A stretch of DNA of 63,822 bases from an uncultured Alphaproteobacteria bacterium (lineage in GTDB: Bacteria; Pseudomonadota; Alphaproteobacteria; Rs-D84), in assembly GCA_944389135.1 (NCBI GenBank), contig CALXLG010000001.1, forward strand, positions 153,421-217,242, given 5' to 3'. Positions 41,962-55,215 of this stretch are shown here, one piece after another (within the stretch, counting starts at the first letter, position 1; each line of letters starts with the position of its first letter). Below the pieces are notes generated by a model. It worked only from the letters and a program-made list of their open reading frames with translations. It did not search any database and had not been told where the DNA came from. Position numbers and translations under genes: made by a program.

Positions 41962-41990
41962 TTGATTTAGAACTTTTCATAAAATATAAT
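41962..41990 (+). promoter_or_regulatory. Sigma70 promoter of the PAP2 leader RNA, copy A
   Basis: TTGATT (41962-41967), exactly 17 nt, TATAAT (41985-41990). Transcription would start near 41997, at the foot of the first leader hairpin. Confidence 0.8.
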
Positions 41991-41996
41991 CGTCTT

Positions 41997-42201
41997 GCTT
42001 TTAAGTGTTCTTAAAAGTGGACCATGTTAGTAGACGGGTTTAGTCACCCGAATATAACATTTTGAACTAACTTGTTTGTCCCGACTTCTCAGTCGGGAAG
42101 TCGTTGCTATACAATAACTGCTGTGCGGTAAAGGCAACGAATTCATCGTTATATTTGAATGACTAACTTCCCGGCACCTACTTTCATAGGTGTCTTTTTT
42201 T
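41997..42201 (+). ncRNA. Structured leader RNA upstream of PAP2 gene, copy A (candidate riboswitch-like attenuator)
   Basis: Stems seen in order: 5' hairpin (41998-42005 with 42010-42017); small hairpin CGGG/CCCG (42035-42038 with 42047-42050) whose loop bases 42040-42046 pair with 42160-42166 as a pseudoknot; long-range stem 42051-42058 with 42148-42155; hairpin 42079-42085 with 42092-42098; hairpin 42102-42107 with 42134-42139 enclosing the conserved TATACAATA. Copy B (54431) has the same set with compensating changes. An intrinsic terminator (42173-42201) lies 25 nt before the PAP2 ATG. A competing helix 42092-42100 with 42167-42175 overlaps the terminator arm. Not a class I recognise. Confidence 0.8.
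42173..42201 (+). terminator. Attenuator-type terminator of copy A
   Basis: Eight-bp stem with one G-U pair (42173-42180 with 42187-42194), 6-nt loop, seven T. Only 24 nt separate it from the PAP2 start codon, too little for a separate promoter, so PAP2 expression should depend on read-through. Confidence 0.85.
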
Positions 42202-42225: not shown

Positions 42226-42777
42226 ATGAAAGTACTATTGTCGGGAATAGTCGGTTTCAGTCTATTTTTCTCTTCTGTGGCATATGCCGGTAATTTTATC
42301 GAAGATTTAGGTGATGTAATTTCTTTTAAAGTTCTGCCTGTGTATTCTTTTGCGGCAACGGTATATAATTCAGATTGGAATACCTGGTATGACTATGATT
42401 GGAACGGATTAAAACAACTGATTGTCGTTAATTTAGTTAAATCTACGGTTACAGATACACTGAAAGAAAATATATCTGAACAAAGACCGAATAAACTTGG
42501 CTTTGATAGTTTCCCATCAGGGCATACTGCCAATGCATTCGCAAATGCTGCTTTTATCCACAGAAGATATGGAATTAGACAAGCGGTTGTGCCTTATGTT
42601 CTTGCGTCTTTTGTTGGGTATTCTAGGGTTCAATCACGCTGGCATTATACACATGATGTACTAGCAGGTGCTGCGGTTGGTTTTTTGTCTGCGTGGATTT
42701 TTGCCGATAAAAAGCAAAATGTTTTTATTGCGGCTGATACAGAAAGTGTTGCTTTTAGGTTTAGCACTGTTTTTTAA
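42226..42777 (+). CDS. Secreted PAP2-family phosphatase A
   Basis: 183 aa. Signal peptide MKVLLSGIVGFSLFFSSVAYA. The PAP2 active site is complete: K-x6-RP-like LKENISEQRPNK, FPSGHTANAFANA (catalytic His) and SRVQSRWHYTHDVLAGAAVG (nucleophilic His and Asp). Few membrane helices besides a C-terminal one (AAVGFLSAWIF), so it is a periplasm-facing phosphatase acting on lipid phosphates or small phosphoesters. The C-terminus ADTESVAFRFSTVF ends in alternating aromatics and a terminal Phe, like an outer-membrane strand. The ATG at 42226 follows AAGGA and begins the signal peptide. Its mRNA starts with the structured leader at 41997. Its paralog is at 54679. Confidence 0.87.
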   Translation: MKVLLSGIVGFSLFFSSVAYAGNFIEDLGDVISFKVLPVYSFAATVYNSDWNTWYDYDWNGLKQLIVVNLVKSTVTDTLKENISEQRPNKLGFDSFPSGHTANAFANAAFIHRRYGIRQAVVPYVLASFVGYSRVQSRWHYTHDVLAGAAVGFLSAWIFADKKQNVFIAADTESVAFRFSTVF

Positions 42778-54396: not shown

Positions 54397-54424
54397 TAGA
54401 CAAAATTTACTTGCTTGTTATTAT
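54397..54424 (+). promoter_or_regulatory. Promoter of the PAP2 leader RNA, copy B
   Basis: TAGACA (54397-54402), 16-nt spacer, TATTAT (54419-54424). The start would be near 54431, at the foot of the first hairpin, as in copy A. Confidence 0.6.
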
Positions 54425-54430
54425 TAGAAA

Positions 54431-54641
54431 CGTACGTTCGGGTGGATTCCGAATGTACTTTTAAAAGACAATAGTTAGTAAGGAAGGGCTTGAACACCCG
54501 AATATACTAAACGAACTGACTTATGTCCCGATTCTGGTCGGGATGTTGTTGCTATACAATAGGTACTTATTCCAAAGGCAACAAGGTCATCGTATATTTG
54601 ACTGTTCAACTCCCGACCACCAATTTTATTTGGTGGTTTTT
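54431..54641 (+). ncRNA. Structured leader RNA upstream of PAP2 gene, copy B
   Basis: Same plan as copy A: 5' hairpin (54432-54441 with 54449-54458); GGG/CCC hairpin (54486-54488 with 54497-54499) whose loop 54490-54496 (TTGAACA) pairs with 54603-54609 (TGTTCAA); in copy A these strands are TTAGTCA and TGACTAA, so both sides changed together. Long stem 54501-54507 with 54592-54598; hairpin 54526-54531 with 54538-54543; hairpin 54547-54552 with 54578-54583 enclosing the invariant TATACAATA and AAAG. Terminator at 54616-54641. A competing helix 54536-54543 with 54611-54618 overlaps its 5' arm. Class not recognised. Confidence 0.8.
54616..54641 (+). terminator. Attenuator-type terminator of copy B
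   Basis: Eight-bp stem ACCACCAA/TTGGTGGT (54616-54623 with 54630-54637), 6-nt loop, T-run. It lies 37 nt upstream of the PAP2 ATG. Confidence 0.85.
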
Positions 54642-54678: not shown

Positions 54679-55215
54679 ATGAATAAAAAATTATTTGTGT
54701 TATCGGTTATTCCGATATCCTTATGTCCGACAATTTCTTTTGCAGGACCTTTTACAGATATTAACAGGTTAGGGGATTTGTTTATGGTTATGACACCGGC
54801 TTATGCGCTGGGGATGACTGTTCAGGCAAAAGATTTCAAAGGAACTTTGCAATTAGCCGAAAATATTGCTGCGGTTCAAGTTGCAACAGAAGGTCTTAAA
54901 AGAATTGTGCGCGAAGAAAGACCAAATGGTGCAGATAACTTATCTTTCCCAAGTGGGCATTCGGCGGGTGCTTTTTCAGGTGCAATGTTCGTGCATAAGA
55001 GATATGGGCTAAAACCTGCGCTGTTGCCGTATGCTATGGCCGCAATTACAGGTTGGACAAGAGTCTATGTAAAAGCGCATTATTGGCACGATGTTATTGC
55101 AGGAGCAGCATTGAGCGCTTTATTTACCTGGGTGATAGTGGAACCTTATGATACAAAAATAAGTGTTTCTGCAGATACAACCGGGTTTAATTTTTCCTTT
55201 AAGACGGTTTTTTAA
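54679..55215 (+). CDS. Secreted PAP2-family phosphatase B
   Basis: 178 aa, paralog of the protein at 42226. Signal peptide MNKKLFVLSVIPISLCPTISFA. Active site: LKRIVREERPNG, LSFPSGHSAGAFSGA and TRVYVKAHYWHDVIAGAALS. The C-terminus SADTTGFNFSFKTVF again ends in an OMP-like amphipathic strand with terminal Phe, matching ADTESVAFRFSTVF in paralog A. Paralog B keeps the same relation to a structured leader RNA. The ATG at 54679 follows AAAAAGGG and begins the signal peptide; the frame is open further upstream through the leader. Substrate not known; lipid A or isoprenoid phosphates are possible for periplasmic PAP2 enzymes. Confidence 0.87.
   Translation: MNKKLFVLSVIPISLCPTISFAGPFTDINRLGDLFMVMTPAYALGMTVQAKDFKGTLQLAENIAAVQVATEGLKRIVREERPNGADNLSFPSGHSAGAFSGAMFVHKRYGLKPALLPYAMAAITGWTRVYVKAHYWHDVIAGAALSALFTWVIVEPYDTKISVSADTTGFNFSFKTVF

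Follow-up and report, generated by a model that had tools for sequence, protein, structure and literature searches.

In plasmid antisense attenuators such as pT181, the antisense pairing decides the terminator, and the antisense RNA is made from the opposite strand. In the record of phage P1 the annotated order is a1, b1, C4 RNA, a2, b2 and then icd/ant, and an H1-like hairpin is seen by eye ahead of C4. RNase P accepts the C4 precursor as a substrate (Hartmann 1995, as cited in PMC11143913), and PMC4825925, citing earlier work, describes how the immunity RNA CI of satellite phage P4 ends transcription prematurely by pairing with seqA on its upstream side and seqC on its downstream side. The P4 region scores 74.9 bits with the C4 model (RF01695) and 60.8 bits with isrK, with c4-a1b1 just under the cut-off. 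The upstream target RNA of IsrK has a terminator of its own (PMC4825925). sRNA-Xcc1 (RF02221) has been detected as an 88-nt RNA (PMC2996969) and is described as a trans-acting virulence sRNA, located upstream of symE or having plant targets (PMC2996969, PMC12444791, PMC12189769). In Rfam, RF02221 belongs to no clan and C4 is in CL00128; a link between sRNA-Xcc1 and C4 was not found in the open-access literature, an absence that is no proof of novelty.

The window, which is the whole stretch of 63,822 nucleotides analysed here, contains two leaders, copy A and copy B, each ahead of a gene for a PAP2 phosphatase. A sequence-only reading had proposed that in both leaders an aptamer-like hairpin and an alternative helix, which overlaps the terminator, exclude each other and decide between termination and read-through.

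Architecture of the two leaders

The helices described by this reading are present in both copies (Table 1). The helix of copy A joins 42092-42100 (GTCGGGAAG) to 42167-42175 (CTTCCCGGC) through eight Watson-Crick pairs and one G-U, and in copy B the eight pairs between 54536-54543 and 54611-54618 are found as described. The helix of copy A has three bases in common with the terminator, as had been claimed, the terminator scan giving 42173-42194; for copy B the overlap also holds, but the scan places the terminator start at 54615, one base earlier than the reading did. The 5' strand of the helix is indeed also part of an upstream hairpin, H1, in both leaders, and in copy A it is the H1 3' arm that coincides with it. 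The helix is conserved in homologs, being kept in the PAP2 orthologs of other species and overlapped by a terminator in 158 of 162 homologous leaders, and the exclusivity of the alternatives is conserved with it. It is the aptamer part of the proposal that is not supported, as the upstream elements form a target pair, a1/b1, that is variable in sequence and matched to its own a' and b', with no ligand pocket.

Table 1. Positions of the elements of the two leaders and of the genes that follow them
Copy	Element	Position	Strand	Sequence or remark
A	Promoter TTGATT-17-TATAAT	41962-41990	+	
A	5' hairpin	41998-42017	+	From sequence; position matches first hairpin of c4-a1b1
A	Hairpin Ha GGG...CCC	42036-42049	+	a1 in loop
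A	a1 TTAGTCA	42040-42046	+	Pairs with a' 42160-42166
A	b1	42049-42058	+	CGAATATAAC; pairs with b' 42148-42157
A	H1 hairpin (anti-P1)	42079-42098	+	TCCCGACT/AGTCGGGA; in MFE and centroid folds
A	Stem P1, 5' strand	42092-42100	+	GTCGGGAAG; sRNA-Xcc1 match 42092-42183, R1 match 42092-42176
A	P2	42102-42139	+	42102-42107/42134-42139; conserved ATACAATA internal loop
A	P3	42141-42160	+	42141-42145/42156-42160; b' (42148-42157) in loop region
A	a' TGACTAA	42160-42166	+	Immediately 5' of stem P1 3' strand
A	Stem P1, 3' strand (alternative helix)	42167-42175	+	CTTCCCGGC
A	Intrinsic terminator and T tract	42173-42201	+	Stem GGCACCTA/TAGGTGTC 42173-42194, then T7
A	PAP2 phosphatase gene	42226-42777	+	183 aa, signal-peptide-like start; Pfam PF01569, E 3e-17
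B	Promoter-like site	54397-54424	+	
B	a1 TTGAACA	54490-54496	+	GGG 54486-54488 ahead; pairs with a' 54603-54609
B	b1	54499-54507	+	CGAATATAC; pairs with b' 54592-54600
B	H1 hairpin	54526-54543	+	
B	C4-like core	54536-54618	+	sRNA-Xcc1 match 54536-54626, R1 match 54537-54618
B	Stem P1	54536-54543/54611-54618	+	GGTCGGGA/TCCCGACC, 8 pairs
B	P2	54546-54552/54578-54584	+	
B	P3	54586-54589/54599-54602	+	
B	Intrinsic terminator	54615-54638	+	Terminator scan; overlaps stem P1 3' strand
B	PAP2 phosphatase gene	54679-55215	+	39% identical to protein A over residues 7-183

The predicted folding of both leaders is much stronger than that of their shuffled versions (z of -5.7 for copy A and -6.3 for copy B). 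The GGG of hairpin Ha in copy A has an alternative partner in the CCC of the stem P1 3' strand. Among the homologous leaders the core ends about 49-50 nt before a start codon, a ribosome-site match of at least four bases is found in 120 of 161, and a -10-like hexamer lies about 32-40 nt 5' of a1 in most. The architecture, the exclusivity of H1, stem P1 and terminator, the promoter spacing and the gene context can be read from the sequence itself.

The 158 usable downstream proteins fall into 73 clusters, and a crude signal-peptide pattern is found in 113 of them; the Pfam families include PAP2, outer-membrane barrels, glycosyltransferases, LicD, sulfatase, YadA anchor, ankyrin repeats and DNA methylase. 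One leader (L045) stands ahead of a C5 cytosine DNA methylase and three (L006, L054, L068) ahead of a conserved protein with a nuclease-like appearance; it is possible that these are defence genes. A compact core of 64-66 nt, which does not have the ATACAAYA loop (L249, L250, L260, L263-L265, L268), is seen ahead of another PAP2 paralog group, and these leaders share the address (T)TAGAACA / AAACATTGA(T).

Relationship to sRNA-Xcc1 and distribution

Both leaders align with the sRNA-Xcc1 model over its full length (model positions 1-87 of 87), with 37.7 bits (E 2.5e-5) for copy A and 36.9 bits (E 3.8e-5) for copy B, neither of which reaches the cut-off of 53 bits, and the outer stem of the model is exactly the alternative helix, referred to here as stem P1. 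The sequence-only reading had missed that its helix closes an RNA of a known kind, and also the size of the family. When the whole window is searched with Rfam at the gathering threshold, one tRNA is found and nothing else. With the C4 model (cut-off 45 bits), neither copy gives a match at E-values up to 10 and none of 20 homologous loci gives one up to 0.5; none of the Rfam riboswitch families matches either leader.

Searching with RF02221 gave more copies in the genome of the window and matches in 27 of 59 related genomes. The covariance model R1, made from 27 copies found in this way, scores copy A at 64.9 bits and copy B at 61.8 bits; its calibration was short and its E-values are therefore rough. 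With R1, eight copies are found in the genome of the window; within the genus the model matches 100 of 113 genomes (from one to at least 40 times in a genome of about 1 Mb), and across the order matches are present in 144 of 163 genomes. The genus is Candidatus Enterousia, gut Alphaproteobacteria whose genomes are reduced and which the literature assigns to the order Rs-D84 (PMC12306168). When named genomes were scanned with a pattern, the only hits were metagenome-assembled genomes labelled Alphaproteobacteria, Candidatus Enterousia or, once, proteobacterium. A consensus leader from several homologs gave only short chance matches in a BLAST search of plasmids and phages, and the search of viral contigs with the PAP2 protein found no relative; the sole match in a viral collection is an IMG/VR contig (L072), in which the next gene encodes a secreted-looking protein.

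In the genome with at least 40 copies (G014), many leaders lie near contig ends (C3, C4, C6, C13, C32), which suggests that they are repeats at which the assembly breaks. Divergent pairs of leaders about 1 kb apart occur in several genomes (G071:C2:161718-/162714+, G062:C4:79642-/80639+, G073:C42:3226-/4222+).

In a model-fitted alignment of 100 sequences, 98.9% of the stem P1 cells pair, and for the whole structure of P1 and P2 the covariation score of the same 100 sequences is higher than in all 500 shuffles. Covariation counts on helices that had been picked for their pairing are circular and were discarded as evidence. The leaders are real and conserved, and they are part of a large C4-type family.

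Address pairing

The order of the elements was found by reading 33 homologs, in which two segments 5' of the core pair with two segments inside it, the partner of a1 being a', just 5' of the stem P1 3' strand, and the partner of b1 being b', in the P3 loop. The pairing was scored with a1 and b1 required to be adjacent, a rule that replaced a version without adjacency, which was too noisy. In 162 leaders the own pairing scores 34.9, compared with 26.0+-2.9 for swapped pairings, and GGG stands directly 5' of a1 in 151 of 162 own pairings vs 30 of 162 swapped ones; in a sample of 60 leaders, none of 5000 permutations reaches the observed mean pairing. The addresses are diverse, the 162 leaders having 72 different sequences for a1 and 134 for b1, and no address is common to two copies sampled from one genome. 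Within a genome, cross-pairing is avoided slightly, without demonstrated significance.

The PAP2 orthologs of other species retain both leader and address. The address TAGTCACC/CGAATATAAC is common to five loci (copy A and four relatives), which show one T-for-C change in b1 and, at one locus, one drifted base in a'; for the third PAP2 copy, the orthologs have a compensated change from C-G to T-A in b. Stable a/b pairs in cis are by themselves no proof of action in trans. A second target, a2/b2, is absent from the Enterousia leaders, where own and swapped scores are 24.3 and 24.1 and 1193 of 5000 permutations reach the observed value. That the pairing is specific to each copy and that the second target is missing both follow from these comparisons of sequence.

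Swapping H1 within the genus does not discriminate between own and swapped arms, because stem P1 is nearly constant; in 44 divergent loci the own pairing of H1 is modestly better (16.4 vs 14.3). The RCC expected for RNase P follows stem P1 in only 92 of 162 leaders. The spacer from b1 to H1 contains an additional terminator-like hairpin in 61 of 155 cases, compared with five in shuffles. Where it occurs (L110-L209 spacers), this hairpin has the form GGCGC...GCGCC with a T run, as in IsrK and phages P1/P4, and a short RNA with a1/b1 could be released by it. Copies A and B do not have this spacer hairpin.

The terminator and the alternative folds

A terminator is present in 136 of 162 Enterousia leaders and in none of 30 true members of sRNA-Xcc1, and it overlaps the stem P1 3' strand by 2-8 nt in 158 of the 162 homologous leaders. 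Similar terminators are seen by eye in L023, L024 and L026, loci that belong to a different family of the order or lie elsewhere in the class, which places the variant beyond the genus.

The energies of two folds were compared, Fold I with a1:a', b1:b', H1 and a free terminator, and Fold II with stem P1, by nested energy models in which pseudoknots and proteins are ignored. Fold I lies below Fold II in 96% of the 162 leaders, by about 12 kcal/mol on average in these models, and is thus computed to be the ground state; the terminator is complete in 81% of the Fold I structures vs 1% of the Fold II structures. With a complete terminator in the computed ground state, it is likely that termination is the default and that the gene is off. 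The mutual exclusivity expected by the sequence-only reading was borne out when the alternatives were folded, and that the fold favoured in energy is the terminating one had gone unnoticed. These data support mutually exclusive helices, in which H1 or the long-range a/b pairing competes with stem P1 and stem P1 with the terminator.

When a1 and b1 are occupied, stem P1 is predicted to be best in 76% of the leaders before the terminator is made, and afterwards in only 24%; once the whole terminator is present, H1 together with the terminator beats stem P1 in about three quarters. Copy A follows the majority pattern, and copy B has no stem P1 either before or after the terminator. As stem P1 loses once the terminator is complete, read-through would need kinetic timing. 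Read-through driven by stem P1 is the weakest step of the model, most of all for copy B. On structural grounds, a switch that either terminates or reads through is well supported; its direction and an action in trans are what we infer.

True members of sRNA-Xcc1

From 398 genomes of the phylum, 30 true RF02221 members were collected (L210-L239, from several families of Pseudomonadota). As a set, they have a significant upstream a1/b1 (0 of 5000 permutations) and a significant a2/b2 within 65 nt downstream (0 of 5000 permutations), and several single members show no clear a/b pair. In the clear cases a2/b2 lies over the ribosome site or just 5' of the start codon. Nine downstream proteins were tested, SymE, Bro-N, KilA-N, P22_AR_N and Rha among them; these genes are mostly SymE or phage antirepressors. 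A phage-type copy is also seen in the genus (L011), before a Rha gene, and by eye its a2/b2 is still there. sRNA-Xcc1 thus has the look of a C4-type RNA whose target is the gene that it precedes.

Proposed mechanism and alternatives

We propose, with a probability of roughly 0.7, that the leaders are C4-type self-antisense RNA leaders which have been turned into transcription attenuators. The transcript would begin with the target pair a1/b1, followed by a compact RNA (P1, P2, P3) bearing a' and b'. In Fold I, a1:a' and b1:b' would form in cis, with the 5' GGG also binding the stem P1 3' strand, and H1 would sequester the 5' strand of stem P1, such that the terminator is free and transcription stops by default. 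Fold II would be triggered if a1/b1 is unavailable to a'/b', for example when a protein or a further copy of the same RNA is bound to it; stem P1 would then form ahead of terminator synthesis, the base of the terminator would be lost and the polymerase would enter the gene. Fold II would thus be the on state, the released RNA may act in trans and RNase P may trim it.

There is a real, if lesser, chance that the attenuator works purely in cis, with Folds I and II alternating on one molecule in answer to a protein, a chaperone or the speed of transcription, and with no RNA acting in trans. This is the attenuator part of the proposal above, from which it differs only in the trigger, and it agrees with the lack of a2/b2, with the strong preference for Fold I in cis and with the conservation of addresses in orthologs, which is expected for cis helices. 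Against it, the whole C4 design is kept, including accessible a' and b', copies sampled from one genome share no address, and 61 of 155 spacers contain the additional hairpin that resembles a terminator and is also a feature of IsrK and phages P1/P4.

A ligand-binding riboswitch, in which an aptamer of P2 and P3 (ATACAAYA/GAAAG) governs stem P1 and the terminator, would be in agreement with the conserved internal loop of P2 and with the presence of a terminator switch. This is improbable, however, as no riboswitch family of Rfam matches, as the same core is found in sRNA-Xcc1 members, where it precedes SymE and phage antirepressors whose start codons hold antisense targets, as the downstream genes have no pathway in common and as antisense pairing accounts for the variable a/b segments.

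It is similarly improbable that a small RNA repressing other genes in trans is the main product and the downstream gene incidental: the detection of sRNA-Xcc1 as an RNA of 88 nt (PMC2996969) speaks for it, but in most of 161 cases the core ends some 50 nt ahead of a gene that has a ribosome site, the PAP2 orthologs retain the leader, and in the true sRNA-Xcc1 members the start of the own gene is a significant target. Chance or relatedness, with two recently duplicated PAP2 genes having ordinary terminators behind leaders that are alike, would agree with the observed similarity of the leaders of A and B and with their position before PAP2 genes, but can be dismissed, as copy-specific pairing is found in 162 diverse leaders before 73 protein clusters and the homolog data contradict it.

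If the leaders are self-antisense attenuators, as preferred here, each of them might further be an independent, self-addressed RNA memory switch, although this is unlikely. The RNA from an active copy would then bind a1/b1 of its own next transcript and block Fold I, such that an active gene stays on and silent copies remain off; a gut symbiont with a reduced genome would have dozens of orthogonal switches for surface proteins, constructed in the manner of phage immunity RNAs, with its DNA unchanged.

C4-type RNAs are known from phages and satellites. The design is here chromosomal and multi-copy, before surface and accessory genes, in bacteria of only about 900 genes, and the terminator replaces the usual translational target at the ribosome site. 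The comparison also offers a testable mechanism for sRNA-Xcc1, whose members as a set target the start of their own downstream gene.

Comparison with known systems

When compared with sRNA-Xcc1, the window leaders have the same core, including ATACAATA, and a1/b1 is also upstream in the true members as a set, whereas the latter have a2/b2 at the gene start and no terminator. When compared with C4 of phages P1 and P7 (RF01695; c4-a1b1, RF03163), the promoter, the 5' hairpin, a1 in a hairpin loop, b1, the spacer, the H1-like hairpin, P1-P2-P3, b' in the P3 loop and a' before the stem P1 3' strand are all in common. In contrast to C4, the window leaders have no a2/b2 at the start codon, their terminator lies over stem P1, they are present in many copies per genome, and the genes are those of surface and accessory proteins (PAP2 in copies A and B) and not antirepressors.

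The layout is also that of the phage P4 immunity RNA CI with seqA and seqC, but P4 retains a downstream target near the start codon and controls phage replication genes, whereas the window leaders have a single intrinsic terminator on stem P1. The Gifsy-1 IsrK (RF01394) is alike in its upstream target RNA and in having alternative structures in common with the downstream RNA (PMC4825925); the window copies differ from it in having neither a spacer terminator nor an antirepressor. Compared with pT181, the antisense of the window leaders is part of the same transcript. The leaders of the window thus have the build of C4-type RNAs, despite failing the C4 sequence model.
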